Origin: a virus
Length of the DNA stretch: 25,649 nt
Strand: one strand, 5' to 3'
Virus record (IMG/VR): IMGVR_UViG_3300028277_000019
Span: 1-25,649 of that record
This document shows, one piece after another, positions 2,162 to 23,207 of the stretch. A model generated the notes under the pieces. The model did no database searches. It was not told the DNA's origin and saw only the letters and a program-made list of their open reading frames with translations. Both the position numbers and the translations under genes were made by a program. Position 1 is the stretch's first letter, and every line of letters starts with the position of its first letter.

Positions 2162-2901
2162 ATCCTGTATTAATGATAATGCAGCCAAGAATAATACCTC
2201 CGGCTATAACATCTATGAGAGAGAATTGGAATTTACCTAGAGTATGGTTTAAAGCATTTACTGAACCTCAAGTAGTACATGAAATGAATATGTTTGTTAA
2301 ACAAACTAACTTCAGTCATTATGTTATTATGTCAGATGATGCTATTAGCTATAAAAGAGCTATTGATACTGTATTAGCTAATGCACCTAAGTACGATGTA
2401 TTCACCGGTTGGTGTAATATGGAAATGTACGGAGATAAAATAAGTTCGCACTCTAATGTTTCATTTCATGCATTACCATTAATAGATGAAAATGCATCTC
2501 TTGTTAGACCTTTATATGATGACTATCCTCCTTGGGCTTCCGTTGATGAGGTATTAAGTAAAGAAGGAAATTTTCAAACTGCAATTGCAAGTTTTGCAAC
2601 TAGTTGTTTTACTAGAGATATTTTATTAAAGTATCCTTTAGGAGTTTGGGAGAATGGTAAAGCTTCTGATCATCACATTTCATATAGACTTCAAAAAGAT
2701 AAAGTACCAATATGGACTAATAGAGATGGTTTTGTAAGACACTTACGTCAAGGTAGAGAGTCATATTTAAAAAATACTAAAGCATGGCTAGTAGGTAATG
2801 TCCCATCACAAATAATTTATGAGTTAGATAAAAAGCAGTATCAATTTGATGGACAGAGACAATATGAATATGAACCTTTATTTGTGAGGACAGAGACATG
2901 A
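2158..2901 (+). CDS. Putative glycosyltransferase-like protein
   Basis: This 247-residue protein begins with a strand-like MNPVLMIMQPR and carries YVIMSDDAI at 55-63, which resembles the acidic metal-binding segment of GT-A glycosyltransferases. DHHISYRLQ in the C-terminal third resembles the region where such enzymes bind acceptor or metal. It is locked between neighbours by ATGA overlaps on both sides (2158-2161 and 2898-2901), so it is probably co-translated with the upstream glycosyltransferase and the downstream LpxA-like gene. Homology is weaker than for the upstream gene, and no specific substrate can be given. Confidence 0.5.
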   Translation: MNPVLMIMQPRIIPPAITSMRENWNLPRVWFKAFTEPQVVHEMNMFVKQTNFSHYVIMSDDAISYKRAIDTVLANAPKYDVFTGWCNMEMYGDKISSHSNVSFHALPLIDENASLVRPLYDDYPPWASVDEVLSKEGNFQTAIASFATSCFTRDILLKYPLGVWENGKASDHHISYRLQKDKVPIWTNRDGFVRHLRQGRESYLKNTKAWLVGNVPSQIIYELDKKQYQFDGQRQYEYEPLFVRTET

Positions 2902-3497
2902 CTAGCGATTGGTATTATGTAGGTTCAAATAAAATACATAAGACAGCTCTTATTAATTGGGACGTTGTTGAGATGGGTGAAAATAATATTATAGGAGCTT
3001 ATACTTGTATCGGTACAGATGCTCAAAGTATTAGAGATAAATCTACAGGTGTTATTTCTATTGGAGATAATAATATATTCAGAGAATCTGTTTCTGTAAA
3101 TATGCCAACTGAATGGTCAAAGTTAACAGCTATAGAAGATAATTGTTATTTGATGATTAATTCTAACATAGCACATGATTGTTATGTTGAATCAAATTGT
3201 ATCATTAGTAATAATGCAGCTTTTGGTGGGCACGTATATGTTATGGAAAATACAAATATAGGTTATAGTGTATCAATACATCAGTTCCAAGTTATAGGTT
3301 CATATTGTATGTTAGGTATGGGTTCTATCGTACCTAAGGGAGCTGATATTAAATGTGGTACATTGTGGTATGGAGTCCCAGCAAGATTTAAAAAGTATAA
3401 TGAAGTTGGTTTACAGCGAAACGGTCTTGCTGTAGAGGATATGAAAGGTGAAGATGAAAGAAGACAAAGTATTATCGAAGAAAGATCTAAATACTAA
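2898..3497 (+). CDS. LpxA-like left-handed beta-helix acyltransferase
   Basis: This 199-residue protein matches the hexapeptide-repeat acyltransferases, closest by eye to LpxA (UDP-GlcNAc O-acyltransferase), which adds the first acyl chain in lipid A synthesis. Repeats of the I-G-x-x-x type run from about 20 to 160. Diagnostic segments are NSNIAHDCYV (88-97), with H93 matching the LpxA catalytic His, NNAAFGGHVYV (105-115), VSIHQFQVIG (125-134) and an end resembling LpxA's G-L-x-R-x-G-L (GLQRNGL, 171-177). It is shorter than bacterial LpxA (about 260 aa) because the C-terminal helical domain is mostly missing. It may acylate or acetylate a nucleotide sugar in this cluster; the true donor and acceptor are unknown. 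Confidence 0.8.
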   Translation: MTSDWYYVGSNKIHKTALINWDVVEMGENNIIGAYTCIGTDAQSIRDKSTGVISIGDNNIFRESVSVNMPTEWSKLTAIEDNCYLMINSNIAHDCYVESNCIISNNAAFGGHVYVMENTNIGYSVSIHQFQVIGSYCMLGMGSIVPKGADIKCGTLWYGVPARFKKYNEVGLQRNGLAVEDMKGEDERRQSIIEERSKY

Positions 3498-4483: not shown

Positions 4484-5156
4484 TTCATATTGTGATCCTC
4501 TCAATGGAAAAGGTGGAGGAATATCATCAGAAAAAAGATGGTTCAATCTTTTAGATGAGCCTTCATTTGTTTTTGGTTTAGCGGGTTCTAGTATTGATTG
4601 GTCTTTGAATATTTTTCTTGAAGGGCATAATCATAGAGAAGGTAAAGTAATTTATATCGAATCTATTCCAAGAAGATTTCATTTTGAGTTCTTACAATAT
4701 CCTGGTCATGCAGGTGCGGTTCTATTTGATGATATGAAAGAGTGGGAAAATGATAAATGGCTTTCATCACCTCAAATGACATACCTTAATCAACATAAAA
4801 AGTTTATAGAATATTTTCATATAAATTATAAGGACTATCACAAAGCAACAAAGGCTAGATGTGTATTAAAGGCTTTATCAGAACAATATGAAAAGGTTAT
4901 ATATTTCTCCACTTCACATAATAGAGATTTATATGCCCCTGTGGAAATAGAAAATACAGAAAAATTTATTATACCTGACATAACATTAATGGATATATCT
5001 CGCGCAGAGATAAAGTCCGGTTATGATCCTTCATTTAAAGATTGGAGATCAAATCATTTTACAGAAGAGAATCATAAAAATTTATCATCCTATATAAAGA
5101 GGTTGTTTAATAATGAACCTGTGAATGATATAATATTTAATGAGAACGTGATATGA
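4464..5156 (+). CDS. SGNH-hydrolase-like protein
   Basis: This 230-residue protein looks like an SGNH/GDSL-fold esterase, a fold that removes or moves acyl groups on sugars and lipids. The nucleophile block is at the N-terminus, HVFGDSYCDP (3-12, Ser8), and a block-V-like SNHFTEENH at 196-204 supplies the likely catalytic His198. GLAGSSIDWS (38-47) fits the block II glycine region. There is no signal peptide, so it acts in the cytoplasm. It overlaps the upstream gene by 20 nt and the carbamoyltransferase by 4 nt (ATGA). With an LpxA-like acyltransferase nearby it could act on the same glycan; the substrate is unknown. Confidence 0.65.
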   Translation: MIHVFGDSYCDPLNGKGGGISSEKRWFNLLDEPSFVFGLAGSSIDWSLNIFLEGHNHREGKVIYIESIPRRFHFEFLQYPGHAGAVLFDDMKEWENDKWLSSPQMTYLNQHKKFIEYFHINYKDYHKATKARCVLKALSEQYEKVIYFSTSHNRDLYAPVEIENTEKFIIPDITLMDISRAEIKSGYDPSFKDWRSNHFTEENHKNLSSYIKRLFNNEPVNDIIFNENVI

Positions 5157-6601
5157 TATATTGGGGTATTACTTGTGGATCACATGACGGTGCCTTAGCT
5201 GTTTATGATAGTGTGAAACAAGAGGTGATATTTGCAACCGACGCTGAAAGATTTTCTAGAAAAAAGAATGATCCTCAAATACCTTTAAGCTTGTTAGACT
5301 ATGTGAGAGAAGAATATGATGAACCAGATAAAATTTATTTTTATGAAGATCCTCGTATAAAGATTTCTCGAAGATGGTATGCTGGACAGAAGCCTGCCTG
5401 GAAGCCACCTGTGTTGCCACATCCATATAATACTAAACGTTATAAGATGAAGTATACCCCACATCATAGGTCACATGCGGCATATGGTTATTATACATCA
5501 CCTTTTACTAAATGCATGGTATTATGTATTGATGCTATAGGAGAATGGGAAACATTAACTGCTTGGCATGTTAAAGATCATAAATTTAAAAAATTATGGA
5601 ACTGGAAATATCCTAAGTCGTTAGGATTAATGTATTCAGCATTGACACAGTACTCAGGTTGGAAGCCTAATGAAGAAGAATATATTATGATGGGGGCTGC
5701 TGCTAGACAATCATATCCTTATGATGTAGTAGTAAATAGAATTAGAGATTGTTGGGAAACAAAAAATATGACCTGGCATAAAGGATGTAAAAATATTCCA
5801 GAGTGGAATGTGAAACCAGAAATCCATCCTGAGGATGTGCCCACTGCCGCACAACATGTTTACGAAGAAGAGTTTCGTAAAATATTAAAAGAGTTAAGTA
5901 CTCATAAATTAAATAATGGAAATATAGTATTTGTGGGAGGATGTGCTTTAAATGTTAGTGCCAATAGATTATTATCTGATTATTTTTCTAACATCTATAT
6001 ACCAGCTAATCCAGGTGACTCTGGATCAGCTATTGGATGTATTCTTGCAAGAACAAGAAACCATATTAGTCCTACTCCTTATCTTGGTTATGATATACAA
6101 GGACCATATCCGATCAAAGAAATAATTGAACACTTGATGATCGATCGAGTAGTTGGAGTAGCAAACGGAAGATGTGAATTCGGACCACGTGCTTTAGGTA
6201 ATAGAACACTCTTCGGAGATCCTACTGATAAAAAAATAAAACAAAAAATAAATGAAACAAAGGGTAGAGAACAGTTCAGACCTTTTGCTCCGATGATATT
6301 ACCTGAAGACGTGGCACAATATTTTAATGGTGGATTTCATTCACCTTATATGAGTTGTGCATTATCAGCAACAGAAGAATTTAAACAGAAATATCCTGGT
6401 GTTGTTCATTTAGATGGAACATCAAGATTGCAAGTTGTTGATTCAGAACCTCATATAACATTATTAAAACTTTGGAAGGAAATAACAGGATGTCCTGTAT
6501 TGTTAAACACTTCCTTAAATGTAAAAGGGCAACCAATTGTCAACACAAGAGAAGACGCCGAAGCTTTCACTAAGAGAACGGGTGTTACTGTTCTTTCTTA
6601 A
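5153..6601 (+). CDS. Carbamoyltransferase, NodU/CmcH family
   Basis: This family moves a carbamoyl group from carbamoyl phosphate, through carbamoyl-AMP, onto a hydroxyl of a sugar, antibiotic or nucleobase. The 482-residue protein shows the Kae1-like N-terminal half with GITCGSHDGALA (5-16) and metal-site HHRSHAAYGYY (104-114), then GGCALN (262-267), ANPGDSGSAIG (285-295), and the carbamoyltransferase C-terminal domain with GRCEFGPRALGNR (339-351), FRPFAP (375-380) and NTSLNVKGQPIV (452-463). It is somewhat shorter than bacterial NodU/CmcH (about 550-600 aa). Here it may decorate a surface sugar; related viral enzymes are reported to carbamoylate hydroxymethylcytosine in DNA, but no hydroxymethylase gene is in this window. 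Confidence 0.92.
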   Translation: MIYWGITCGSHDGALAVYDSVKQEVIFATDAERFSRKKNDPQIPLSLLDYVREEYDEPDKIYFYEDPRIKISRRWYAGQKPAWKPPVLPHPYNTKRYKMKYTPHHRSHAAYGYYTSPFTKCMVLCIDAIGEWETLTAWHVKDHKFKKLWNWKYPKSLGLMYSALTQYSGWKPNEEEYIMMGAAARQSYPYDVVVNRIRDCWETKNMTWHKGCKNIPEWNVKPEIHPEDVPTAAQHVYEEEFRKILKELSTHKLNNGNIVFVGGCALNVSANRLLSDYFSNIYIPANPGDSGSAIGCILARTRNHISPTPYLGYDIQGPYPIKEIIEHLMIDRVVGVANGRCEFGPRALGNRTLFGDPTDKKIKQKINETKGREQFRPFAPMILPEDVAQYFNGGFHSPYMSCALSATEEFKQKYPGVVHLDGTSRLQVVDSEPHITLLKLWKEITGCPVLLNTSLNVKGQPIVNTREDAEAFTKRTGVTVLS

Positions 6602-6662: not shown

Positions 6663-7143
6663 AAAAGTATTAATCGGACCTGCAGAACGATTAAGTTTTA
6701 TGTTAAGACAGCATCATCTTGATGGTATGTATGATGATAAAGAATTGGGGTTTGATTATCAAGAACATTTGATTCGCAAATGTTTCGAAGAGAGGGGTTC
6801 TGATATTTCTGTATATTTGATATATCAGGATTTTCATAAGAGCATAGGGTTTGATGAAGATAAAATATATCCCAGAGATAGAGAACATGCTGAAGGTAAG
6901 AAGACATTATCTGAAGTAGAAGGACCTCAAGGTAGTAAAATATTAATGAGAAATAAAAACGTAAAAATTAAAAAGAGTCTTCATTGGAAACCTTTTTTGG
7001 AATATTATTGTAATCATGAATTTTGGGAAATTGAATATAATAAATTTTTAAAAACTTTACCTTACTATAAAAAAGTTTTTACTAATTTTAACCATGGACA
7101 TATAAAGGATTATGAAAGTTGGAATAATTGGATGCTCTCATAG
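6655..7143 (+). CDS. Protein of unknown function (162 aa)
   Basis: No family was recognised. The protein is basic, rich in Tyr, Lys and His, with the segments YLIYQDFHKSIGFDEDKIYP and HGHIKDYESWNNWMLS. There is no signal peptide or membrane segment. The start lacks a Shine-Dalgarno site (CCATTTATAT before ATG), suggesting coupling to upstream translation. It overlaps the next gene by 32 nt and belongs to the same tightly packed cluster. Confidence 0.55.
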   Translation: MIEKVLIGPAERLSFMLRQHHLDGMYDDKELGFDYQEHLIRKCFEERGSDISVYLIYQDFHKSIGFDEDKIYPRDREHAEGKKTLSEVEGPQGSKILMRNKNVKIKKSLHWKPFLEYYCNHEFWEIEYNKFLKTLPYYKKVFTNFNHGHIKDYESWNNWMLS

Positions 7144-8020
7144 TGCTGGTGTAAGCCAATCAGGTCTCCTTAATAAATCAGGTGGATTTGATGCTTGGAA
7201 AGGTTGGCCTCGTCAATTAGCAAGGAAATTTCCTCAACATGAGATCCATCTATTTGCATCGCCAGGAGGTGGGCAGAATAATATGGAAGCTGCTTTGAGG
7301 ACTTGCCTTGTTGAAGATTATGAAATGGTGATCCTTCAATTTACAACACAACGTCAAATGTATCCTTTGACAATAGAAAGAAAATCAAAGAAGTATGATG
7401 GTACATTAGATTCATGGTTCCGCACAGGTAGAAAAGGAAACTTCTTTCTACATCAACAAAAGATGAAAAGTCTTTCTGTAAAGAATTATGTTGTAGAAAG
7501 AAAATGTGTTCAGGTAGGACCCCATTGGGATAGCCGCATGGGATTAGATCTTGATGGCACAAAAGTAAATGCAAATGAATTACCTCAAGTTATATTAGAT
7601 GCTCTTATAGATAATGAATACTTTAATGAGATGGCAGAGACATTTTATAATTGTCGAAATATGTATAAGAAATTATTTAAACATTTTTTCTCTATGTTGT
7701 GGGTGCCTACTTATAAGCACGGTCCAACTCATGTTGATCAAGCTTTAATTGAAGTAGAAAATAAAGTTCCAATATTCGTAGAAGAGTTTCTAACAGGTAA
7801 AAATTTAACAAACCAGGTGGATTGGAAATTAACTATATATGATTGGTTAGTTGAATATTATTCAAAAACTATGTCTCGTGAAGATGCCAATAGAATTATA
7901 TATCACGAGTATGCCCTATACAAAGGACACTTAGGGGAAAAGAAACAACATGAAGTTTTAAATCAATACTTATTAAAACATAATGAATTTTACGGAGCTT
8001 TAAATGGAAAAGAAGCATAA
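7112..8020 (+). CDS. SGNH-hydrolase-like protein, second copy type
   Basis: This 302-residue protein begins MKVGIIGCSHSAG, placing a nucleophile-like Ser in a G-x-S-x-S block at 7-11, followed by FASPGGGQNNM (48-58), typical of the glycine/asparagine block in SGNH proteins, and VILQFTTQRQM (73-83) in the place of block III. A clear catalytic His block was not found, so enzyme activity is uncertain. AAAGGA lies 3 nt before ATG 7112. It is the last gene of the 1276-8020 run and has no signal peptide. It is not a close copy of the 4464-5156 protein. Confidence 0.5.
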   Translation: MKVGIIGCSHSAGVSQSGLLNKSGGFDAWKGWPRQLARKFPQHEIHLFASPGGGQNNMEAALRTCLVEDYEMVILQFTTQRQMYPLTIERKSKKYDGTLDSWFRTGRKGNFFLHQQKMKSLSVKNYVVERKCVQVGPHWDSRMGLDLDGTKVNANELPQVILDALIDNEYFNEMAETFYNCRNMYKKLFKHFFSMLWVPTYKHGPTHVDQALIEVENKVPIFVEEFLTGKNLTNQVDWKLTIYDWLVEYYSKTMSREDANRIIYHEYALYKGHLGEKKQHEVLNQYLLKHNEFYGALNGKEA

Positions 8021-8130: not shown

Positions 8131-8159
8131 TTGACATTTTGGTCTAGTTGTGATATAAT
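8131..8159 (+). promoter_or_regulatory. Perfect sigma70-type early promoter (E1)
   Basis: TTGACA (8131-8136), a 17-bp spacer and TATAAT (8154-8159) match the consensus at all 12 positions. It is extended by TTT after the -35 and ATA after the -10, shared with three other promoters in the window. Transcription should begin near 8166 and serve the VWA/peptidase-like gene at 8197. Confidence 0.9.
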
Positions 8160-8196: not shown

Positions 8197-10749
8197 ATGA
8201 GCGAACTACGAGAACAAAAATCAATCCTAGCTAAGTTGATGGTTTCCGAGAATATCACGGTCCGTCATGCTAAAGTTCCTACCGCAGGATTTGATCCTAA
8301 ATCAAGAACCTTGGTTCTTCCAATCCTTAAAGAGATGGAAGGAGAAGTCTATGACTTATTCGTTTGTCATGAGGTTGGACACGCCTTATATACGCCAGCA
8401 GAAGGTTGGCATAAAGTGGTTTCCGAATTCGGACCAAACTACAAAGGGTTTTTAAATATTGTCGAAGATGCCAGAATTGAAAAATTGATCAAACGCAAAT
8501 ATCATGGTGCTGCAAAAGCAATGCATGCAGGTTATCAGGTTTTGATGCATGAACGCGATTTTATGGGATTCAAGAAATATAAAATAGATATCAATACAGC
8601 TCCTCTGATTGATAAACTCAATATACATTTTAAAAGTGGATTACGCGAAGCAGTAAGATTCACTGAAGAGGAAATGTATTTTGTTCGCGAGATGGAAAAT
8701 CTTGAGACATGGGATGATGTAGAGCAATTAACAGGTGAGCTTTGGGATTGGTGTTCAGATCGAGAAGAACAGTTACAACAGTTCGATGAAATGCAGATGC
8801 AAATGGACACTGAAGAAGATTCGGATTGTGAGGAAGATTGTGAATGGGATGATAATGACAATATGCAAGATATTGTACCTCCAAATCCAGATAAGGAAAA
8901 TCCAGAAAACGAAGATCAGGTAAGCAAAGAAGATTGTGATGCACCAGTTGATAGTTGTCCTGAAACAGATGGAGATGGTCCAGAAGAACAACTGAAAGCA
9001 AATGAAGATGGAGAATCACCTGTAGATCAAACCAAAGATGAATCTCAAAAAGAAGCTGCTCCAAAAAATCAAGCTGGTGGTTCAGAAGGTGGAGATGATA
9101 CATGGTACGATGAAGATCCTTGGACGTGGGATAAACCTGAACCTCAATCAATTACTGATAAAGAGTTTAGAGCTCATGAAGAAGAATTAGTTCATGAAGA
9201 TGCGATCGAAATTCGATATTTTAATTCACCGAAACTGAATATCAAAAACAATGGTTTGGTTGTCACATACAAAGAGTTGATGAAAGAACATAAGATCAGA
9301 ATCGAAAAGAAGGCGGAGGTATATGAAACCGAATCACAACTTCCATTTGAATATGCACGCGAGTATTTGAAATTAGTTGATAAGGATAATAAACCAGTTG
9401 TTAATTATCTCGCAAAAGAATTTGAGATGAAGAAGAAAGCAGCGGAATATAAAAGATCACAGACTGCTAATTCGGGAATCATATCTTTAACAGATATTCA
9501 CAAATACAAATATTCAGATAATATTTTCAAGAAAGTCACGATCGTTCCAGAAGGAAAGAATCACGGATTATATATGTTGTGTGATTGGTCAGGATCGATG
9601 CATGATAAGATGATTCCAACATTTATTCAGTTGTTGCAATTAGTAGACTTTTGTAGAAAGTGTGCAATCAAACATGAAGTATATGCCTTCATAGATTATG
9701 CTTATGATGAAGATGGACATGATATAAGTGTGAGACAGGCACAGAGACCTTTAGAAGAAAAGATAGCTGGTAATATTTCATCTGCAGGTGATCACCGAGC
9801 GGTACAATTAGTGGAGATCTTTTCAGATAAAATGTCAGCAAAAGATTTTCGTGATATGAGAGAACAGTTGGTTGTTTCTTTACTTCGATGTGATAGTGAG
9901 TTTCACAACGCTCCTTATCAAGCAAGAAAAAGAATGCAGGCTAAGATAAAAGCAGATGTATATGGTAAGAAGCTTCGCGTAATTAAAGAGACCAAGCAAG
10001 AGATGATTTGGGATAAGATGAGAGAAGAAAAAGAAATATCTACATGGGATTGGAGCGCTATATCGAATCGATATAATTTTCCATTATCACGTCTTTGTGG
10101 AACACCATTAAATTCTGCAATCATGTTTAGTATTCCAAATGTAAATAGATTCAAAAAAGATAATAGATTAGATATTGTTAATACAATTATTTTAACAGAT
10201 GGTGAATCAAATTCAGCTCACAGTTATTGGAAAGCGGACAAGGAAGATGGGAAGATTAGATCTTATAACATTGAGAATCAAATAGGAGGCGATCCTGTTC
10301 GTAATAAGTTAGTAGATACCGAAACAAAAAAAGTATTTGATTGGACACGTAAAAGTAGTTGGGGTGAAACACGTAATACACTTGAGTATTACAAGTATAA
10401 AACATTTTCGAATGTTGTTGGATTCTTCCTTTGTACTAGTGGAGATCAGGCTGGTAGGATAGGATCAAAAGATCAAAGGATAAAAACAGGATCATCATTC
10501 AGCCAAGATGCATATACAGATGCAAAATCAGACTATAATAGGAACGGATTTTTTATAAGTACGAACTTAGGATATTCAGAATTGTATGTGATTAAAGCAA
10601 ACAAGTCAGTTCAGACGGAAGATGAGATTGATCTTGATACCGATAAGCAGTTGACTACAGCGCAGATAACACGTGCATTCAAAAAGTTTCAGAAAGGAAA
10701 ACTTGAGAAGCGCGTTCTGCTTAATCGATTTGCAGAAATGGTAGCATAA
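8197..10749 (+). CDS. CobT-like VWA-domain protein with HEVGH metallopeptidase-like motif
   Basis: This 850-residue protein has three parts. The N-terminal part (1 to about 190) contains VCHEVGHAL with a gluzincin-like zinc motif HEVGH at 58-62 and a downstream NIVEDARIE (87-95) that could supply the third ligand. Then comes a long acidic, low-complexity linker (about 195-310, rich in Asp, Glu, Gln, Pro). The C-terminal part has a von Willebrand A domain with MIDAS motif DWSGS at 463-467 and a later ILTDGES (D668). VWA partners of MoxR/CobS AAA+ ATPases bind substrate through the MIDAS metal; the next gene encodes such an ATPase. No CobN chelatase is present, so cobalt insertion is unlikely to be the whole function. 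Gene starts 37 nt after a perfect promoter. The actual substrate is unknown. Confidence 0.8.
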   Translation: MSELREQKSILAKLMVSENITVRHAKVPTAGFDPKSRTLVLPILKEMEGEVYDLFVCHEVGHALYTPAEGWHKVVSEFGPNYKGFLNIVEDARIEKLIKRKYHGAAKAMHAGYQVLMHERDFMGFKKYKIDINTAPLIDKLNIHFKSGLREAVRFTEEEMYFVREMENLETWDDVEQLTGELWDWCSDREEQLQQFDEMQMQMDTEEDSDCEEDCEWDDNDNMQDIVPPNPDKENPENEDQVSKEDCDAPVDSCPETDGDGPEEQLKANEDGESPVDQTKDESQKEAAPKNQAGGSEGGDDTWYDEDPWTWDKPEPQSITDKEFRAHEEELVHEDAIEIRYFNSPKLNIKNNGLVVTYKELMKEHKIRIEKKAEVYETESQLPFEYAREYLKLVDKDNKPVVNYLAKEFEMKKKAAEYKRSQTANSGIISLTDIHKYKYSDNIFKKVTIVPEGKNHGLYMLCDWSGSMHDKMIPTFIQLLQLVDFCRKCAIKHEVYAFIDYAYDEDGHDISVRQAQRPLEEKIAGNISSAGDHRAVQLVEIFSDKMSAKDFRDMREQLVVSLLRCDSEFHNAPYQARKRMQAKIKADVYGKKLRVIKETKQEMIWDKMREEKEISTWDWSAISNRYNFPLSRLCGTPLNSAIMFSIPNVNRFKKDNRLDIVNTIILTDGESNSAHSYWKADKEDGKIRSYNIENQIGGDPVRNKLVDTETKKVFDWTRKSSWGETRNTLEYYKYKTFSNVVGFFLCTSGDQAGRIGSKDQRIKTGSSFSQDAYTDAKSDYNRNGFFISTNLGYSELYVIKANKSVQTEDEIDLDTDKQLTTAQITRAFKKFQKGKLEKRVLLNRFAEMVA

Positions 10750-10769
10750 TGCAAATTTGTTTTATAATA

Positions 10770-10801
10770 ATTTCAACAAGATATAAGGAACGCGTTGAAA
10801 T
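10770..10801 (+). other. 8-bp inverted repeat between the two promoter-driven genes
   Basis: ATTTCAAC (10770-10777) is perfectly complementary to GTTGAAAT (10794-10801), with a 16-nt loop. It lies 20 nt after the stop codon at 10749 and just before the next promoter. There is no T-run, so it may be a weak terminator, an mRNA 3' stem or an operator. Confidence 0.35.
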
Positions 10802-10819
10802 CATTGATAAACAAAAAGG

Positions 10820-10848
10820 TTGACATTTTGTCAAACTTATGGTATAAT
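10820..10848 (+). promoter_or_regulatory. Perfect sigma70-type early promoter (E2)
   Basis: TTGACA (10820-10825), 17-bp spacer and TATAAT (10843-10848), again followed by ATA, serve the CobS-like gene at 10885. The -35 is part of a small palindrome, TTGACA-TTT-TGTCAA (10820-10834), which could be a repressor site. The octamer TCATTGAT lies 19 nt upstream of the -35, exactly as at promoter E1. Confidence 0.9.
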
Positions 10849-10884
10849 ATATCATAATGAATAATAACTTAGAGAGAGTAGATT

Positions 10885-12045
10885 ATGACACACCGAGACC
10901 AATTAGTTGAAGCCTGGAAGAAAGTACATGGAGATTCAAAAGTGCTTGAGAGATCTGAGGTAAATAGAGTAGCCGAGGAAGCAGGACTTAAAGAGCCGAA
11001 TCAGAATTTTTTGAGTAAACTTAGAGTTGGCCGAAATCAATTTTCGATTGCCAATTATGGACAAGCATTACAAATTATGCCACAAGCAAAGTGGGGCGAT
11101 CAATATCGGAAGCCTAAAGCAATTGATGCACGTGAAGTGCAACATGAGACGGCAGTTAAAAAGGTTAGCGAAGAAGTTTCATTCGTACCTTCCCCCGATC
11201 CTAATTATGTTAAAGCAGGTTATTTTACAGAACTTGTAAGAATCATAAATTCCGGAATGTTCATTCCAACATTCATTACTGGTCTTTCTGGTATGGGGAA
11301 AACCAAAGAGGTTTTCGAAGCAGCAGCAAAAAGTAAACGTGAATTAATTCGAGTCAATATTACAATTGAAACTGATGAGGATGATTTACTTGGTCACTAT
11401 ACCCTTAAAGATGGTGAAACTGTTTGGGAAGATGGACCTGTTATCGTTGCAATGGAAAGAGGAGCAATTCTTCTTCTTGATGAGATTGACCTTGCATCAA
11501 ATAAAATCATGTGTCTACAACCAGTGCTTGAAGGTGGAGACATCTTCTTGAAGAAGATTAACAGACTCGTTAAACCAGCACCTGGATTCAATATTATTGC
11601 GACGGCGAATACTAAAGGAAAAGGATCTGAGGATGGGAGATTCATTGGAACAAACATTCTTAATGAAGCTTTCCTTGATCGTTTCCCATTAACGTTCGAA
11701 CAAGATTATCCAAATGCGACAACAGAGAAAAAGATTATTACCAAGATCCTCGCAAATTATGAAGTCAAAGATGAAACATTTGTTGATCACTTAGTACAGT
11801 GGACCGATGTAATTCGTAGGACTTATGATGACGGTGGCATTGATGAGATTATCTCAACACGTCGTTTGGTAAATATTTGTAATTCATATATGGTATTCAG
11901 AGACAAGATGAAAGCGATCGAATTTTCGATCAATCGTTTTGATGAAGATACTAAAAATGGTTTTATGGATCTATGGAGTAAAGTAGATCCTGCAGCAACC
12001 CCTGAAACAGATGAAGAACCTGCCGAAGAAGCAAAAGAAGAATAA
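10885..12045 (+). CDS. cobS: CobS/MoxR-like AAA+ ATPase
   Basis: This 386-residue AAA+ ATPase is of the type annotated as CobS in marine T4-like phages. After a helical N-terminal domain (about 1-100) the ATPase core shows Walker A GLSGMGKT (133-140), a CobS/MoxR-type segment DDLLGHYTLKDGETVWEDGP (166-185), Walker B ILLLDEID (195-202), sensor 1 in IATANTKG (238-245) and an arginine-finger-like FLDRFP (263-268). The tail is acidic (EEPAEEAKEE). In bacteria CobS drives CobN/CobT cobaltochelatase; MoxR relatives remodel proteins with VWA partners. Here the partner is most likely the upstream VWA protein. The gene has its own perfect promoter, so it is expected to be expressed early. Confidence 0.9.
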   Translation: MTHRDQLVEAWKKVHGDSKVLERSEVNRVAEEAGLKEPNQNFLSKLRVGRNQFSIANYGQALQIMPQAKWGDQYRKPKAIDAREVQHETAVKKVSEEVSFVPSPDPNYVKAGYFTELVRIINSGMFIPTFITGLSGMGKTKEVFEAAAKSKRELIRVNITIETDEDDLLGHYTLKDGETVWEDGPVIVAMERGAILLLDEIDLASNKIMCLQPVLEGGDIFLKKINRLVKPAPGFNIIATANTKGKGSEDGRFIGTNILNEAFLDRFPLTFEQDYPNATTEKKIITKILANYEVKDETFVDHLVQWTDVIRRTYDDGGIDEIISTRRLVNICNSYMVFRDKMKAIEFSINRFDEDTKNGFMDLWSKVDPAATPETDEEPAEEAKEE

Positions 12046-12059
12046 AAATAAAATAGTCC

Positions 12060-12088
12060 TTGACATTTTAAACGTTATCGCCTATAAT
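12060..12088 (+). promoter_or_regulatory. Perfect sigma70-type early promoter (E3)
   Basis: TTGACA (12060-12065), 17-bp spacer and TATAAT (12083-12088) precede the glycosyltransferase/clamp/clamp-loader operon. Genes 12136 to 16313 follow with gaps of 6 nt or less or overlaps, so this is probably the early promoter for the DNA replication operon. It overlaps a dyad and a late-like element described separately. Confidence 0.9.
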
Positions 12089-12135: not shown

Positions 12136-13134
12136 ATGCAGATCGAAGTTCCAATAGCTGAGTTAAGAAAGAAAAAGATTTTTGTAGCTACACCAATGTA
12201 TGGTGGAATGTGTAGTGGAATGTATACAAAAGCTTGTTGTGACTTAGCAACTACAGCCACCAAATATCAAATCGATTTAAAATTCTTTTATCTATTCAAC
12301 GAATCCTTAATTACAAGAGCACGAAATTATTGTGTTGATGAGTTCTTGAGATCCGGTTATACACATCTCATGTTCATTGATGCAGATATTTGTTTCGATC
12401 CGAATTACGTTCTTACACTAGCAGCGCTATGTGATGAAACGAAACCAATCATTGGTGGTATATATCCTAAGAAGTGTATTGCTTGGGAGAAGGTTCGTAA
12501 TGCTGTTGATAAAGGATTAGCTGATGATGATCCAATGACGCTTGAAAGATTTACAGGTGATTTTGTTTTCAATCCAGTAGGAGGTCAACAAACTATTTCA
12601 TTATCAGAACCAGTAGAAGCTTTGGAAATAGGAACTGGGTTTATGATGCTTCAACGTGAAGTATTAGAAAAGTTCGCAAAAGAATATCCTAAGTTTCGAT
12701 ATAAACCAGATCATAACCGTTCAGAACACTTTGACGGTTCCAGATACATTCATGCATTCTTTGATACTATTATTGATAATGATCATTGGATGGGTGAAGG
12801 TAGATCGGAAAATTCCGATCGTTATCTATCAGAAGATTATATGTTCTGTCAATTAGCACATAAGATAGATATCAAAACTTTTCTATGTCCTTGGATGAAA
12901 TTATCCCATGTTGGAACATATGTATTCTCCGGTAACTTACCAGATATGGGTGCATTGGAATATGCCGCGCATGGATATGATACTGAGAATAGACCTTTCT
13001 TAGAAGACAGAAAAAAGAAAAAGTCTGCAGAGGGAATGAATAGAAAAGAACGTAGAAAGCTCGCGTCGAAAAAACGCAAGGATGATAAGAAGTCAGAGAA
13101 ACCTGATTATTCAAAAAGTCCTAACCATTTATAG
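12136..13134 (+). CDS. Glycosyltransferase (GT-A fold, GT2-like) with basic tail
   Basis: This 332-residue protein shows the GT-A pattern: a first strand KKKIFVATPMYGG (12-24), a conserved LITRARNYCVDEF (58-70), and the metal/nucleotide-binding LMFIDADICFDP (78-89, DAD at 82-84). Later EDYMFCQLA (about 230-238) resembles the catalytic-base ED segment of GT2 enzymes. The last 45 or so residues are very Lys/Arg-rich (RKKKKSAEGMNRKERRK), unusual for a sugar transferase and suggestive of nucleic acid or membrane contact. Strong AAAGGAG precedes ATG 12136. It is the first gene of the replication operon, 6 nt before the sliding clamp. The acceptor is unknown: DNA, a virion protein or a host glycan. 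Confidence 0.78.
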   Translation: MQIEVPIAELRKKKIFVATPMYGGMCSGMYTKACCDLATTATKYQIDLKFFYLFNESLITRARNYCVDEFLRSGYTHLMFIDADICFDPNYVLTLAALCDETKPIIGGIYPKKCIAWEKVRNAVDKGLADDDPMTLERFTGDFVFNPVGGQQTISLSEPVEALEIGTGFMMLQREVLEKFAKEYPKFRYKPDHNRSEHFDGSRYIHAFFDTIIDNDHWMGEGRSENSDRYLSEDYMFCQLAHKIDIKTFLCPWMKLSHVGTYVFSGNLPDMGALEYAAHGYDTENRPFLEDRKKKKSAEGMNRKERRKLASKKRKDDKKSEKPDYSKSPNHL

Positions 13135-13140
13135 GAAAAT

Positions 13141-13827
13141 ATGATTATACATAATGAGACTGTTGAATATTTAAAAAACTTTGCTGAGATTAATCAAAGC
13201 CTGGTTATCGAAAAAGGTAAAGTCATTAAGACAGTTAGTGAACAGACAAATGTAATGGCAAAAGCAGAACTCGGACAAGAGTTCCCACAAGACTTTGCGA
13301 TCTATGATCTCAATAAGTTTCTGGGTGTTCTTTCTTTATTCGTTGAGCCACAGTTTGACTTTAGTGAAAAGTCTGTAAAAGTTCAATCAAGTGTTGATGC
13401 AAATAATTATACAGCTGGAGATCAGATAGCTGAATATCAATTTGCCAACATGTCTTTGTTTGAAAATGAAAAAAAGATTCTTGCAAAAGATATTAAGTTG
13501 CCAGAACCGGAAGCTTCATTTAAACTTGAAGAGAAGTATTTCGTTTCTATTATGAGAGCAGCTTCAGTTATGAGTCTACCAGAAATTGCTGTTATAGCAA
13601 AGGATGGAAAGATTAAATTGCAAGCAATTGATTCCAAAACATCCGTCGACAGTTATGCAGTTGACTTGGGTAATTCTGATTCTAATTTTAAAATGATTTT
13701 CAAACTTGAAAATCTTAAATTGATGAAAGGGACTTATGATGTGAAAATATCAAATAAGGGTCTTGGACATTTTAAGAACACAGAAAAGAAACTTGAGTAT
13801 TGGATTGCAACTGAACAGACAGTATAA
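13141..13827 (+). CDS. 45: DNA polymerase sliding clamp (T4 gp45-like)
   Basis: The sliding clamp is a trimeric ring that tethers the phage polymerase to DNA and, in T4, also activates late transcription. This 228-residue protein has the same length as T4 gp45. Matching segments include TVEYLKNFAEIN near the N-terminus (T4: TALLKNFATIN) and DFAIYDLNKFLGVLSLF at about 51-67 (T4: DVAIYDLNGFLGILSL). The second half is more diverged but keeps the alternating strand pattern. It is followed after 5 nt by the clamp loader gene 44, as in T4. Presence of a gp45 supports the idea that the TATAAATA elements here are real late promoters. Confidence 0.93.
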   Translation: MIIHNETVEYLKNFAEINQSLVIEKGKVIKTVSEQTNVMAKAELGQEFPQDFAIYDLNKFLGVLSLFVEPQFDFSEKSVKVQSSVDANNYTAGDQIAEYQFANMSLFENEKKILAKDIKLPEPEASFKLEEKYFVSIMRAASVMSLPEIAVIAKDGKIKLQAIDSKTSVDSYAVDLGNSDSNFKMIFKLENLKLMKGTYDVKISNKGLGHFKNTEKKLEYWIATEQTV

Positions 13828-13832
13828 GGATT

Positions 13833-14771
13833 ATGACAGATAATATATTATGGGTTGAGGCGTATAGACCTCAAAAGGTAGCAGACTGTATTCTTCCTGA
13901 TCATCTGAAGAATCCATTCCAATCATTTGTAGAAAAAGGAAATATTCCTAATCTATTATTGACTGGAGGGCCTGGTGTTGGTAAAACAACAATTGCGAAA
14001 GCAATGTGTAAGGAGATTGGTTCTGACTATCTTGTTGTGAATGGTTCTCAAGAATCTGGTATTGATTTATTGAGAGTCAAACTAGAAAATTATTGTAGTA
14101 GTGTTTCATTACTGGGTGGTAGAAAAGTTGTTATAATTGATGAGGCAGATTATTTAAATCCTCAATCTACACAACCAGCCTTGAGAGGATTTATTGAACA
14201 GTTTTCTGAAAACTGTAGTTTTATTTTTACATGTAATTATTTACATAGGATTATTGAACCAATTCATTCTAGATGTTCTGTAATTGAATTTAAGATAGAT
14301 AAAAAGGATGCACCTGCGATTGCTCAATCTATGTTAGATAGAACAAAGCAAATCCTTGACGAGAATAATGTTAACTATAATGAAAAGGTTCTCGTTGAAT
14401 TAATAATGAGATATTATCCAGATTTTAGAAGGACATTAAATGAGTTACAACGTTATAGTGCTACAGGTGGTATTGACAGCGGGGTTCTCGGTCAATTGGG
14501 CGATGCTAACTTTCTTGCTCTTATCAACGCATTAAAAGAAAAGAACTTTACAAAGGTTCGTAAATGGGTGAATGATTCAAGTCATACAGATCCAAGAAAC
14601 ATATATAGACAGTTATATGATAATTTACATGAACATTTAACACCTAACACATTACCACCAATTATTTTATTATTGGCTGATTATCAATATAAATCTGCAT
14701 TCGCAGCAGATCAACAAATCAATCTAACCGCATGCTTGATCGAAGTAATGGTTGAAGGACAATGGCAATGA
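13833..14771 (+). CDS. 44: Clamp loader large subunit (T4 gp44-like AAA+ ATPase)
   Basis: This subunit of the 44/62 complex uses ATP to open the gp45 ring and place it on primer-template DNA. The 312-residue protein (T4: 319) carries LWVEAYRPQKVADCI (6-20), typical of clamp loaders, Walker A GGPGVGKT (45-52), Walker B VVIIDEAD (99-106), the sensor 1 region FIFTCNY (130-136) and the arginine-finger motif SRC (146-148). The C-terminal third is the helical collar domain. It lies 5 nt after gene 45 and overlaps gene 62 by 4 nt. Confidence 0.95.
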   Translation: MTDNILWVEAYRPQKVADCILPDHLKNPFQSFVEKGNIPNLLLTGGPGVGKTTIAKAMCKEIGSDYLVVNGSQESGIDLLRVKLENYCSSVSLLGGRKVVIIDEADYLNPQSTQPALRGFIEQFSENCSFIFTCNYLHRIIEPIHSRCSVIEFKIDKKDAPAIAQSMLDRTKQILDENNVNYNEKVLVELIMRYYPDFRRTLNELQRYSATGGIDSGVLGQLGDANFLALINALKEKNFTKVRKWVNDSSHTDPRNIYRQLYDNLHEHLTPNTLPPIILLLADYQYKSAFAADQQINLTACLIEVMVEGQWQ

Positions 14772-15187
14772 ATCCATTTGATTTTGTAAAAGATATAAAC
14801 TATAAGAAAAAAGATTTGTTACAAGATGATCCCGATGGTCATATAGAACGGGATTATAAACCCTTTTTAATTAATAGAACATTAAGTTTTACCTCTGATA
14901 CGGCGCTTCATGCTAACGAAATGAACGTAAGACCGTTTCTAGATAACAAGCTTCAATACCACTATTTGCTAAATATCATTAGACCCAAGAACAGATTTGG
15001 TCGATGGTTAAAAGCCGAGAAGTACGAAGCCATAGATCTTATCGTTGAATATTATGGTTACTCCTTGCAAAAAGCTAGGGAAGTCGTTGATATATTCACA
15101 GATGAGGACTTACGTACTCTCAAGCAAAAATTATTTACAGGTGGATTGAAGGAGTTAAATGAGTATAGAGGTCGAAGCGCTCGTTGA
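14768..15187 (+). CDS. 62: Clamp loader small subunit (T4 gp62-like)
   Basis: This is the non-ATPase partner of gp44 in the clamp loader. The 139-residue protein starts MNPFDFVKDINYKKKDLL and is shorter than T4 gp62 (187 aa), a common difference in marine relatives. NRFGRWLKAEKYEAIDLIVEYYGYS in its second half is a helical segment. ATG 14768 is preferred over 14762 because AAGGA (14755-14759) sits 8 nt from it but only 2 nt from 14762, and it makes the ATGA overlap with gene 44. Identification rests mainly on gene order plus weak sequence resemblance. Confidence 0.82.
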   Translation: MNPFDFVKDINYKKKDLLQDDPDGHIERDYKPFLINRTLSFTSDTALHANEMNVRPFLDNKLQYHYLLNIIRPKNRFGRWLKAEKYEAIDLIVEYYGYSLQKAREVVDIFTDEDLRTLKQKLFTGGLKELNEYRGRSAR

Positions 15188-16339: not shown

Positions 16340-16813
16340 ATGTTATATACAAACGCCGCATCACTGTTTACAAATCCCAAACATTTACAACACTTGACTC
16401 AGTCCGCAATTGGATTAGATCATATGTTTGAAAGAGTGTTTGGAGAATTGTCTAATATCAATCAAAATCAAAATCAAACTTCAAGTTACCCACCTTATAA
16501 CTTGAAAAAAGATGGAGATGATTATATAATAGAGTTAGCAGTTGCAGGACTCAATGAAGAAGACATTACAGTGAATGTTGAAAACGGTGTGTTAACCGTC
16601 GAATCAACAACAGATAAATCAGATGAAGATTTTCTCTATCAAGGGATTGCAAAGCGTTCTTTTAAACGTTGTTGGACTCTCTCTGATGATATAATTGTTA
16701 AAGGAGCAGCATTAGACGCTGGGATGTTAACAATTAAAATGGAGAAGATTATTCCTGAGGAAAAGAAGGCAAAGCAGATTAAGATTGTAACAAATCAAAA
16801 GAAGCTTTCCTAA
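16340..16813 (+). CDS. Small heat-shock protein Hsp20 (alpha-crystallin family)
   Basis: Hsp20 proteins are ATP-independent chaperones that hold unfolding proteins; they are common in marine T4-like phages and may help capsid or replication protein folding. The 157-residue protein has a polar N-terminus (1-52, with NQNQNQ at 41-46), an alpha-crystallin domain (about 53-136) with DYIIELAVAGLNEEDITVNV (61-80), the conserved YQGIAKRSFKRCWTL (100-114) and GMLTIKM (128-134), and a C-terminal IKI at 147-149 matching the I-x-I oligomer contact. A strong AAGGAG precedes ATG 16340. Confidence 0.94.
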   Translation: MLYTNAASLFTNPKHLQHLTQSAIGLDHMFERVFGELSNINQNQNQTSSYPPYNLKKDGDDYIIELAVAGLNEEDITVNVENGVLTVESTTDKSDEDFLYQGIAKRSFKRCWTLSDDIIVKGAALDAGMLTIKMEKIIPEEKKAKQIKIVTNQKKLS

Positions 16814-20903: not shown

Positions 20904-21989
20904 ATGAAACGATTAATTTCATTTCTATTAGTATTGGTTGTATCAACAACCTTATTTGGTATTTTAAATGCGAAACAAATTTCAATAGGTTATGTTCTAG
21001 TGGGGCCGCATAATGATGGTGGCTGGTCAATGCGACATCATCAAGGATTTCAATCCTTGACAAAACATGGTTACAAAGTCTCAATGGTTGAGATGGTGCC
21101 AGAGTCAGATTCCAAAAAAGTATTTTCCAAACTTGCAAGAAAACATGACATTGTTTTTGCAACATCGTTTGGTTATATGGATCCAATGGTGAAGGCAGCA
21201 AAGAAAAATAAAGATACTGTTTTCTTACATGCCACTGGTTATAAAGGTAATGATGAAAATATGGACAATTATGTTTGTCATTCATTTCAAGCACGATACC
21301 TTACAGGGATTGCAGCCGGACTGTTGACGAAGACAAACAGTATTGGTGTAGTTGGATCACATCCAATTCCAGAAATCATTCGAAACATTAATGCTCTTAC
21401 TCTAGGAGCTCAAACAGTTAATCCAGATATTAAAGTTAAAGTTGTTTGGATAAACTCTTGGTTTGATCCACCTAAAGATATGGATGCTGCTAAAGCACTC
21501 TTAGATGATGGTAATGATATTCTCTATACAACAACTGATTCACCTAGTGTGGTTTCACTTGCACAACAGGCATGGAAATCTGATGGTAAAGAAGTTTGGA
21601 GTATGGGTAATGATGCGCCTATGGGTGATAATGGGCCAGATCGATACATCACAGGTATGATGTTCAATTGGAACGTTCTTTATAAACATATCGTTGATCA
21701 ACTTGCTAGCGGTAAGTTAGAAATGAATCAACGATGGGCATGGGGTCTACAAGAAAATTGTGTAGGTCTATCTCCATGGGGTAAGAATGTTCCCGGCGAT
21801 GTTGTAAACAAAGTTGAGACAATTAAAATGAATTGGATCAATGATGAGATGGGTACATACTATCCATTTGATCAAGGTGTTACTAAACAAGATGGAACAA
21901 AAGTTCCTGCTGGGGAAATACAAAGACCACAACTCGAGACTATGCAATATTTTGTTAAAGGTGTTGTTTCTCGATTTCCTACAAAATAA
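20904..21989 (+). CDS. Secreted BMP/PnrA-family substrate-binding protein
   Basis: BMP-family proteins are the binding components of ABC importers for nucleosides or related compounds. The 361-residue protein has a signal peptide (MKRLISFLLVLVVSTTLFGI, likely cut after LNA at 21-23; no lipobox Cys), then the first lobe starting QISIGYVLVGPHNDGGWSMRHHQGF with the family's G-P-x-x-D-x-x-W/S pattern (33-48), a linker region YLTGIAAGLLTK typical of BMP proteins, and a second lobe with SMGNDAPMGDNG. No permease or ATPase gene is in the window, so it may work with a host importer from the periplasm. Known phage binding proteins include PstS of cyanophages; this one is a different family. Confidence 0.85.
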   Translation: MKRLISFLLVLVVSTTLFGILNAKQISIGYVLVGPHNDGGWSMRHHQGFQSLTKHGYKVSMVEMVPESDSKKVFSKLARKHDIVFATSFGYMDPMVKAAKKNKDTVFLHATGYKGNDENMDNYVCHSFQARYLTGIAAGLLTKTNSIGVVGSHPIPEIIRNINALTLGAQTVNPDIKVKVVWINSWFDPPKDMDAAKALLDDGNDILYTTTDSPSVVSLAQQAWKSDGKEVWSMGNDAPMGDNGPDRYITGMMFNWNVLYKHIVDQLASGKLEMNQRWAWGLQENCVGLSPWGKNVPGDVVNKVETIKMNWINDEMGTYYPFDQGVTKQDGTKVPAGEIQRPQLETMQYFVKGVVSRFPTK

Positions 21990-21991
21990 TT

Positions 21992-22891
21992 GTGACTATT
22001 CCGATAATCGATTTTCGTAGTAATGCAATAGAACAACAAATGTATGATGTATATACGACTCGTGGTTTTGCTGTATTTACAAATGTCTACGATGAATGGT
22101 TATCGGAATTCCAAGATTGGAAATATCTCACAGAAGAATTCTTTCAACTACCATTAGATGTGAAAAAGAAATATGTATATAATGGAGTAAAGGGTTCATC
22201 AACATGTCGTGCCGGCTGGGGTGAGATGGGATATATTCAGAGTCGAGATGGTGATTCGAAAGAATCATATAATTGGATTGAATCAGCAAGAATGCAAGAA
22301 CAATATTGGCCTACAGAAATTCCAGAGTTTAAACCATTAGCACAATCTATCCTTCAAATCTCTCAACGTCTTTCCCATCAATTTTTCAATAAGTTTGAAA
22401 GTATGTTTAAACATAAAAAAGGATATTTAATAGATAAGCATATGAATGGTTATGTTAATATGAGAATGCTTCATTATCCAGCACACGAGAAGCAAGAGGA
22501 ACACGAGTCTGGAGGAGAACATACTGATTATGGTTCTATTACTTTACTCTTTCGTTTTGATGATGTTGGTGGACTACAAGTACAAGATAGAGAAACAAAT
22601 GAATGGATTGATGTTCCTGTAGTGAAAAATTCAATAGTATTAAACATTGGAGATATGTTTCAAAGATGGTCCAATGATACGTTAAAATCAACCAACCATA
22701 GAGTTGTTAATACAGTCCATACAAAATCTCGCTATTCAATGCCTTATTTTGTGGATCCCGGTAGAGATGTATTAATTAAGAATTTCACAGATGAACCAGA
22801 TAAACATTTACCAATTTCTACCGATGAATATTTTAAACAGACCCTAGCTCAACATAATATTGAACAGAGTTGGGAACAACAGATTAATTAA
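21992..22891 (+). CDS. 2-oxoglutarate/Fe(II)-dependent oxygenase, isopenicillin-N-synthase-like
   Basis: These enzymes hydroxylate or otherwise oxidise small molecules using 2-oxoglutarate and O2. The 299-residue protein has an N-terminal IPIIDFRS block (3-10), the iron ligands H177 and D179 in GGEHTDYGSITLLF (174-187), H236 in STNHRVVN (233-240), and the 2OG-binding RYS at 247-249. Length and order fit the DIOX_N plus 2OG-FeII_Oxy plan. It starts at GTG 21992, 2 nt after the BMP stop, with no clear ribosome-binding site, so it is probably coupled to the upstream gene. The substrate is unknown; it does not look like the TET/JBP base-oxidising branch. Confidence 0.87.
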   Translation: MTIPIIDFRSNAIEQQMYDVYTTRGFAVFTNVYDEWLSEFQDWKYLTEEFFQLPLDVKKKYVYNGVKGSSTCRAGWGEMGYIQSRDGDSKESYNWIESARMQEQYWPTEIPEFKPLAQSILQISQRLSHQFFNKFESMFKHKKGYLIDKHMNGYVNMRMLHYPAHEKQEEHESGGEHTDYGSITLLFRFDDVGGLQVQDRETNEWIDVPVVKNSIVLNIGDMFQRWSNDTLKSTNHRVVNTVHTKSRYSMPYFVDPGRDVLIKNFTDEPDKHLPISTDEYFKQTLAQHNIEQSWEQQIN

Positions 22892-22901
22892 AAAGGAAAA
22901 T

Positions 22902-23207
22902 ATGCTACCAGTATTATTATTTAATGTGATTTCAGGACTTGTTATAGACAAAGCGCAAGACCTCGCGAAGGAGCACGTGGAAGCAATGATTGATAGTATC
23001 ATCCCAGATGATGCAAAAGAAGAGTTAGATGATCTTGTTAAATCCGATCCTACTCACGTGTTTGAAACAGCAAAAGAAGCTTTAGGTGCAGCAGTTGAAG
23101 GAAAGCTCCCTATACCATTAAAAGATGGGACACTTAAACCTATAGAACTTACTTTTAAAGTAAAGTTTGATCCTACCACTATGGATTTAGATATCGAAAA
23201 AGCTTGA
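22902..23207 (+). CDS. Small protein of unknown function (101 aa)
   Basis: This 101-residue protein starts MLPVLLFNVISGLVIDKAQD and is otherwise acidic and helical (PDDAKEELDDLVKSD), ending in a strand-like pattern (IELTFKVKFDPTTMDLDIEKA). ATG 22902 has AAAAGGA just upstream; the frame also opens further upstream but inside the oxygenase gene. No family was recognised. Its stop codon TGA 23205-23207 lies inside the -35 box of the uvsX promoter. Confidence 0.65.
   Translation: MLPVLLFNVISGLVIDKAQDLAKEHVEAMIDSIIPDDAKEELDDLVKSDPTHVFETAKEALGAAVEGKLPIPLKDGTLKPIELTFKVKFDPTTMDLDIEKA

Follow-up and report, generated by a model that had tools for sequence, protein, structure and literature searches.

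A CobT/CobS-type gene pair of T4-like phages with a HExxH-bearing, zincin-like domain in its CobT-like partner

Introduction

Pairs of a MoxR-type AAA+ ATPase and a VWA protein have been reviewed as MoxR-vWA systems (PMC7159879), and several phage groups are described as carrying one. In PMC8651126, the cyanophage pair is named viral CobST, its peptidase label is treated as a misannotation of CobT, and it is proposed to hijack the CobN of the host. A MoxR-vWA pair of group 2.2 jumbo phages, whose vWA protein carries a metallopeptidase domain fused at its N terminus, is described in PMC7824862 and is proposed there to act in assembling the virion. The gene cobS is reported as a cyanophage core gene (PMC3037559), and CobS plus a peptidase are reported in phage DLP6 (PMC5349666); the accessible parts of PMC12456174 and PMC12583661 hold nothing on a phage pair. 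T4-like phages of the sea conserve this pair, which is frequently classed among auxiliary metabolic genes for vitamin B12; many phages and plasmids have related pairs, often named after a B12 enzyme. Here, we analyze such a pair in a 25,649-nucleotide stretch of DNA from a marine T4-like phage (IMG/VR record IMGVR_UViG_3300028277_000019, positions 1 to 25,649; hereafter, the window), where open reading frame (ORF) A encodes a CobT-like protein and ORF B encodes a CobS/MoxR-type ATPase.

The families, the gene order, and the place before gp45 and gp44 are shared with the PHROG 459 and PHROG 249 pair of T4-like cyanophages (T4-GC 146 and 150 in S-PM2). Among the matches listed, ORF A is about 29 to 36% identical to the proteins of isolates over most of its length, and at 850 amino acids (aa) it is longer than its counterparts in S-PM2 (740 aa) and Mosig (769 aa). 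The three-domain architecture and the pairing are shared with the jumbo phage system, as judged from its published description. With viral CobST the window shares CobS/CobT homology; the peptidase label is called a "mistake" there, whereas the motif is intact and invariant here. CobNST of Alphaproteobacteria (TIGR01650, TIGR01651) is also built on an AAA+ and VWA pair, with an N-terminal domain shared through an intermediate family. Unlike CobNST, the phage side yielded no CobN in 7 related records and no TIGR01651 match in the window, and cellular CobT was without HExxH in 31 of 31 proteins. NorQ-NorD and midasin share the VWA fold with ORF A (Z 14.0 to 15.7), and ORF B matches midasin, CobS, and NorQ among PDB sequences (CobS at E 1.3e-23). 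VWA proteins of IncC-type and other MOBH plasmids (L208, L209, and L213) carry HEAAH and NxxEDxR with an annotated AAA or MoxR ATPase nearby; they differ in having a DUF3150 gene in between, in their length (595 to 637 aa), and in that the nearby ATPases are known by annotation. The system is conserved, paired, and already described in outline; the novelty of the combination put forward in an original prediction made from the DNA letters does not hold, given its publication both as viral CobST and as MoxR-vWA with an N-terminal metallopeptidase.

In the interpretation that we prefer, and hold with moderate confidence, A and B are a CobT/CobS-type (MoxR-VWA) pair with an intact zincin-like site in the CobT-like partner, acting as a protein-remodelling or protein-cleaving machine during DNA replication or recombination.

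The HExxH motif of the phage CobT-like protein and its conservation

The two genes and their domains are arranged as follows.

8197 to 10749, + strand: ORF A, 850 aa, ATG start; PHROG 459 "peptidase" (E 3.8e-165); CobT-like, with a zincin-like N-terminal domain and a C-terminal VWA domain
8197 to 8811, + strand: zincin-like N-terminal domain, residues 1 to 205, modelled separately; top Foldseek matches are zincins, with weak E-values
8368 to 8382, + strand: HEVGH (HExxH motif), residues 58 to 62; in 59/59 relatives
8455 to 8481, + strand: NIVEDARIE, residues 87 to 95; N87, E90, D91, and R93 in 60/60 relatives
8812 to 9129, + strand: acidic linker, residues 206 to 311; predicted local distance difference test (pLDDT) score below 50 in 206 to 306 and 308 to 311
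9550 to 10746, + strand: VWA domain, about residues 452 to 850; Z 15.7 to MDN1-MIDAS and 15.5 to the NorD VWA domain
9583 to 9597, + strand: metal ion-dependent adhesion site (MIDAS) motif DWSGS, residues 463 to 467; D463, S465, G466, and S467 in 65/65 relatives
10195 to 10203, + strand: TDG, residues 667 to 669, probable MIDAS partner loop; among 65 relatives the first residue is T in 62 and S in 3, with D and G kept in all
10885 to 12045, + strand: ORF B, 386 aa, ATG start; PHROG 249 (CobS), E 4e-108; CobS/MoxR-type AAA+
11281 to 11304, + strand: ORF B Walker A GLSGMGKT, residues 133 to 140; G133, G136, G138, and K139 at least 98% kept in 50 representatives
11467 to 11484, + strand: ORF B Walker B ILLLDE, residues 195 to 200; D199 and E200 at least 98% kept in 50 representatives

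The original prediction had placed both genes, HEVGH, and DWSGS at these positions and had noted NIVEDARIE in the N-terminal part, and it had treated conservation of HEVGH among homologues as one check on its peptidase idea. We aligned 65 cluster representatives (window included) out of 156 sequences. H58, E59, and H62 were kept in all 59 representatives that have the HExxH columns, and N87, E90, D91, and R93 in all 60 that have the second motif; the other six and five, respectively, are gapped there and lie on cut contigs. The DxSGS residues of the MIDAS were kept in 65 of 65. HExxH was likewise present in 55/55 members of the phage profile family (A1). An alignment of 31 N-terminal domains, of which six come from bacterial genome contigs (L200, L202 to L205, and L207, out of nine such loci, L199 to L207), left P42, H58, E59, H62, N87, E90, D91, R93, and G104 invariant; the L200 sequence has an insertion within the motif, HEGVGH. 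In the record of Pseudoalteromonas phage XG4, which is marked unverified and may contain a sequencing error, the zincin-like half and the VWA half are two separate ORFs.

The full-length model of ORF A (mean pLDDT 73.8) puts HEVGH on a helix spanning residues 50 to 65 and NIVEDARIE on a second helix spanning residues 80 to 101, where the invariant E90 may serve as the third metal ligand. Its VWA part aligned to MDN1-MIDAS over 225 residues at 3.4 Å (Z 15.7) and to the NorD VWA domain over 257 residues at 6.1 Å (Z 15.5). Because VWA domains filled the full-length structure searches, the N-terminal domain was folded alone (residues 1 to 205; mean pLDDT 87.4, predicted template modeling score 0.85). 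The first 12 of 42 Foldseek rows against the PDB were zincin metallopeptidases, representing five proteins (jannalysin, abylysin, ArdC, selecase, and IrrE), with jannalysin 4jix_B the best row (E 0.063, probability 0.96). In a VIA comparison with 217 chains, the first 18 rows were zincins, including ArdC (Z 6.5 over 120 residues), abylysin (5.8), BlaR1 (5.8), ZMPSTE24 (5.3), and PprI (4.7); a Z value below 8 may reflect merely a common arrangement. Among predicted viral proteins, 15 matched the domain at E ≤0.001; named rows included "Cobalt chelatase, CobT subunit" (E 7.8e-4) and other phage proteins with VWFA or cobalamin names. Weaker matches came from haloarchaeal tailed viruses, namely, an HHTV-2 protein of unnamed function (E 3.6e-3) and an HCTV-2 VWFA protein (E 8.1e-3).

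A phmmer search of PDB sequences with ORF A gave no match at E 1, and neither did NCBIfam; the sole Pfam match was at chance level (EbsA, E 0.36). The A1 profile gave 21 PDB matches at E ≤1 (best, 0.18), and the alignments shown were low-complexity acidic or short. The N-terminal domain is a candidate zincin, with its two motifs on two helices and zincins as its top PDB matches, at weak scores; the peptidase idea of the original prediction is partly supported.

Pairing with a CobS-type ATPase

ORF B matched AAA_5 (E 4.3e-18) and reached CbbQ_C at its cut-off of 20.6. With Walker A and B motifs in an AAA+ protein and a MIDAS in the adjoining VWA protein, the two genes appear from their sequences to form a MoxR-VWA pair.

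Searching 50,697 phage records by tblastn found A in 462 and B in 554. Counts by name were equal for A and B (Synechococcus, 365; Cyanophage, 61; Prochlorococcus, 24), although these were not matched record by record. Pairing was followed in 167 loci, comprising the IMG/VR matches listed from two scans that share contigs and nine pieces from the window and annotated records. Both genes were present in 149 of these, always A then B on one strand, which bears out the expectation that related phages would carry them together. Of the 18 unpaired loci, 15 reach contig ends, with A standing alone in 4 and B in 11; the remaining 3 (Vibrio phage ICP2, Pseudomonas phage hairong, and Gordonia phage Hello) have an annotated CobT too distant for the pair search.

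Kinship to cellular CobT and the fate of HExxH

Compared directly with cellular CobT, the phage profile matched weakly (30.5%, E 5e-4), and we therefore used a chain through an intermediate family, A3, of ten plasmid or bacterial VWA proteins. The phage profile matched A3 at 99.6% (E 8.5e-25) over residues 9 to 194, that is, the N-terminal domain, and A3 matched cellular CobT (A2) at 99.8% (E 5.5e-29) over nearly its full length. Through A3, these profile matches indicate that ORF A is homologous to cellular CobT within a wider CobT superfamily. NxxEDxR was present in all ten A3 proteins and HExxH in eight.

The cellular sample was drawn from 76 alphaproteobacterial genomes, 41 of which had a CobT over the cut-off; we examined 31 of these (the 30 best-scoring and that of G017), and A2 holds 29 of them, two with long upstream frame extensions being excluded. 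HExxH was found in the CobT part of 0 of the 31. Instead, the residue after an invariant His is D (27 proteins), N (3), or E (1), and the spacing from that His to the following one is five positions rather than four in 28 of 31. In the alignment, all 31 keep both the Glu of NxxED and R93, with D91 replaced by Gln in 21. One CobT frame (L226) has HEPAH far upstream of the CobT region. A residue-by-residue equivalence between HExxH and the HDxxxH of cellular CobT was considered and rejected: two hhalign alignments place HExxH differently, and our claim is therefore limited to the absence of HExxH in cellular CobT.

We also looked at 14 proteins annotated as CobT-type and encoded by phages or plasmids, including two from T4-like phages (Mosig and S-PM2). 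Eleven of them have HExxH: ICP2, Hello, IncC, Microbulbifer, SSU5, Citrobacter, Mosig, S-PM2, RHEph10, CRP-810, and T5S1. NxxED followed within 60 residues in 9 of these 11, and R93 was kept in 5 of the 9. A narrow literature search found no statement of HExxH in mobile CobT set against its absence in cellular CobT. These data suggest that the peptidase reading and the CobT reading of the protein are each half right. E59 is the residue at which these published readings could be both reconciled and told apart: HExxH persists in most of the mobile copies examined and is missing from the cellular CobT examined, which yields a prediction at a single residue.

The same comparison bears on whether HExxH...NxxED is a structural or regulatory metal site only, which would leave the pair as a pure AAA+ remodelling machine. 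Cellular CobT, with HExxH in 0/31, and the three mobile CobT-type proteins that are without it speak for this explanation. However, the catalytic-type E59 is as invariant as both histidines (59/59) and is also kept in the six bacterial-contig relatives; since a structural site would not need E59, we regard this explanation as unlikely.

Genomic setting of the pair

PHROG matches identify the window as part of a T4-like phage, with gp45, gp44, gp62, and a T4-type DNA polymerase. Clamp and clamp-loader genes follow the pair.

13141 to 15187, + strand: sliding clamp gp45 (from 13141), clamp loader gp44 (from 13833), and gp62 (from 14762); PHROGs 223, 168, and 225

The window also encodes a RecA-type protein (23260) and an Hsp20 (16340 to 16813). 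A near-complete IMG/VR record of 167,436 bases matches A and B at 100% identity, and the ORFs that flank them there have lengths in the same sequence as in the window.

To describe the setting more widely, we used 74 loci with 3 kb downstream that are distinct by a 300-base stretch of A (Mosig included). gp45 lies downstream of the pair in all 74 (median distance, 1.2 kb; no more than 3 kb in 71; farthest, 4.2 kb), and gp44 in 72. Upstream, gp46 was found in 16 and gp47 in 6 of the 29 loci that have 4 kb on that side. The order in S-PM2 is gp47, gp46, peptidase, CobS, gp45, gp44.

Other mobile-element lineages, hand-picked from search rows and carrying no statistic, show comparable surroundings. 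The pair lies between DNA ligase and DNA polymerase in hairong, SSU5, an Acinetobacter phage-like plasmid, and RHEph10; by polymerase and primase in ICP2 and T5S1; and by endonuclease V in CRP-810. Plasmid modules, whose ATPases are known by annotation only, combine it with RecT or Bet, a lambda-type exonuclease, and DUF3150, with ssb in two of three. On the conjugative or mobilizable plasmids, the AAA/MoxR ATPase, DUF3150, and a VWA protein with HEAAH...NxxEDxR stand beside the RecT/Bet and exonuclease genes. A DNA-linked action is inferred from the position of the pair upstream of clamp and clamp-loader genes in this phage and from its occurrence, in several other lineages of mobile elements, within modules for replication or recombination. 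The original prediction spoke of remodelling, cleaving, or metal-loading a host protein; metal-loading and a host protein as target are not supported here, and to judge by its genomic position, the pair could serve phage DNA replication just as well as act on the host.

An alternative, the published one for the group 2.2 jumbo phages, is that the pair is a chaperone-protease for virion assembly or maturation. It was proposed for the same architecture (PMC7824862), and the hsp20 near the pair in the window, with a like gene downstream in 27 of the 74 loci, would suit it. Against it, the nearest assignable downstream genes are replication genes in 74/74 T4-like loci and in several other lineages too. 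The promoters, moreover, are of the sigma70 type, with the limits that late-promoter motifs were not searched and that the immediate neighbours are without known function. We consider this alternative very unlikely.

Cobalamin as an explanation of the pair

The remaining published reading, viral CobST, would have the phage lend its motor to host CobN and so raise the cobalamin supply, for example, for a phage B12-dependent ribonucleotide reductase (RNR). Homology of ORF B to CobS fits such a role. ORF B nevertheless scored below the curated CobS cut-off (TIGR01650, 82.2 bits and E 3.6e-23, versus 558.55 bits), and TIGR01651 (CobT) gave no match in the window at E 0.01. As the original prediction had noted, no CobN was visible; PF02514 (CobN or ChlH) gave no match in any of 7 related phage records, a set that includes fragments.

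The RNR complement is mixed. The 167,436-base near-twin record encodes a TIGR02505-type adenosylcobalamin (AdoCbl)-dependent RNR (E 6.3e-90; 302 bits versus a cut-off of 340), and a monomeric AdoCbl-dependent-type frame (TIGR02505) occurs in 8 of 22 pair-bearing records, the near-twin included. The three such RNRs tested whole scored 292, 302, and 318 bits, below the curated cut-off of 340. B12-dependent RNR has been described in cobaviruses (PMC6775973). A class I RNR beta subunit was found in 6 of the 22 records (Mosig, XG4, hairong, S-PM2, SSU5, and G004) and neither type was seen in another 8; in none of the 22 did a full-length class II frame occur alongside a class I beta subunit. A ninth TIGR02505 match covers just a short piece (E 1.5e-5) and comes from hairong, one of the phages with the class I subunit. 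A general tie between the pair and B12-dependent RNR was accordingly rejected, 6 of the 22 records having class I instead. Because pair-bearing phages have either a B12-dependent-type or an iron-dependent RNR, cobalamin is not a general explanation of the pair.

Host data point both ways. In the genus of the L180 genome (titled Prochlorococcus), 24 of 26 genomes have PF02514 proteins, which speaks for viral CobST. The E. coli control genome has no PF02514 match, yet four Escherichia phage records match ICP2 CobT in its VWA part. Within the 76 alphaproteobacterial genomes, CobT and PF02514 were positively associated (Fisher p 0.008), and PF02514 occurred without any CobT match in 1 of 28; 20 of the 41 genomes with CobT over the cut-off nonetheless had no PF02514 match (completeness unknown), as did the Caulobacter vibrioides control genome, which also has CobT over the cut-off. 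Cellular CobT is thus often without the chelatase subunit. Viral CobST also leaves HExxH unexplained, and although possible, we find it doubtful.

Proposed mechanism and its weighing

The preferred interpretation, a protein-remodelling or protein-cleaving machine acting at DNA, could work as follows. ORF B would assemble into an ATP-driven ring, and the VWA MIDAS of ORF A would serve to dock on it a ligand or adaptor, in the manner of midasin and NorQD. The N-terminal HExxH...NxxEDxR domain, carried on the flexible acidic linker, would bind zinc and cleave or grip the substrate, and the targets would be proteins at DNA in replication or recombination rather than a tetrapyrrole.

Several observations weigh against this interpretation. 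The structure scores of the N-terminal domain are weak, with no PDB Foldseek E below 0.001 and no Z of 8 or more, and the direct profile match to cellular CobT is weak as well. HEGVGH replaces HExxH in 2 of the 10 A3 proteins. HExxH is absent from 3 of the 14 mobile CobT-type proteins (hairong, the Acinetobacter plasmid, and a Paraburkholderia plasmid), and in ICP2 and Hello it is present with NxxED not within 60 residues; the pair can thus work without the full site in some lineages. In the window, the immediate neighbours of the pair (7112 to 8020, no PHROG; 12136 to 13134, PHROG 1574) are without known function. The position before gp45 in T4-like phages is a single inherited arrangement and not many independent events, and Gordonia phage Hello and the Paraburkholderia plasmid had no replication neighbours in the stretch read. 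Finally, the RNR in the clade to which the window belongs is of the B12-dependent type, and this would fit a role in cobalamin supply.

By VIA, the folds closest to the N-terminal domain include ArdC and IrrE/PprI, with Wss1 far weaker. All three are families with DNA-associated functions, and the title of a PprI entry with single-stranded DNA was among the structure matches. A broader proposal, which we offer as speculative and hold with low confidence, is that mobile elements share a replication- or recombination-linked AAA+/MIDAS/zincin machine that pulls on and cuts proteins bound to DNA or stuck there and is often misfiled as a B12 enzyme, and that cellular CobST is a descendant with the protease site lost. 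Candidate jobs would be replisome recycling, removal of roadblocks or DNA-protein crosslinks, or disarming a defence protein at DNA. The direction of descent is a guess because no tree was built. If the site is real and the target is at DNA, many genomes of phages and plasmids would carry a mistaken B12 label, and ecological conclusions drawn from phage "cobS" would have to be revised.

Promoters and other genes of the window

Each gene of the pair has its own perfect promoter, as the original prediction had it.

8131 to 8159, + strand: ORF A promoter, sigma70-type, TTGACA-N17-TATAAT, 0 mismatches
10820 to 10848, + strand: ORF B promoter, sigma70-type, perfect TTGACA-N17-TATAAT

The distance from the first promoter base to the start codon is 66 nucleotides for ORF A and 65 for ORF B. 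The window holds four perfect sites (8131, 10820, 12060, and 23204) and seven with at most one mismatch, versus 0.69 expected; seven was reached in 0 of 100 shuffles. Among relatives, a perfect promoter lies within 200 nucleotides upstream of 9/94 A genes and 15/99 B genes, compared with 6 of 300 random stretches, so that own promoters are common but far from universal. Promoter sequence is the whole basis on which early and abundant expression of the pair may be suggested; a narrow literature search found no expression data on the pair.

All four perfect promoters begin with TTGACATTT. The third (12060 to 12088) precedes the PHROG 1574 gene at 12136 to 13134, and the fourth (23204 to 23232) precedes the RecA-type gene at 23260. 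Elsewhere in the window, a Bmp/PnrA-type ABC transporter substrate-binding protein (20904 to 21989; PF02608, E 2.9e-46) is followed by a 2-oxoglutarate (2OG)-Fe(II) oxygenase (21992 to 22891), and a NodU-type carbamoyltransferase (5153 to 6601; PF16861, 1.7e-50) lies downstream of a hexapeptide transferase gene (2898 to 3497).

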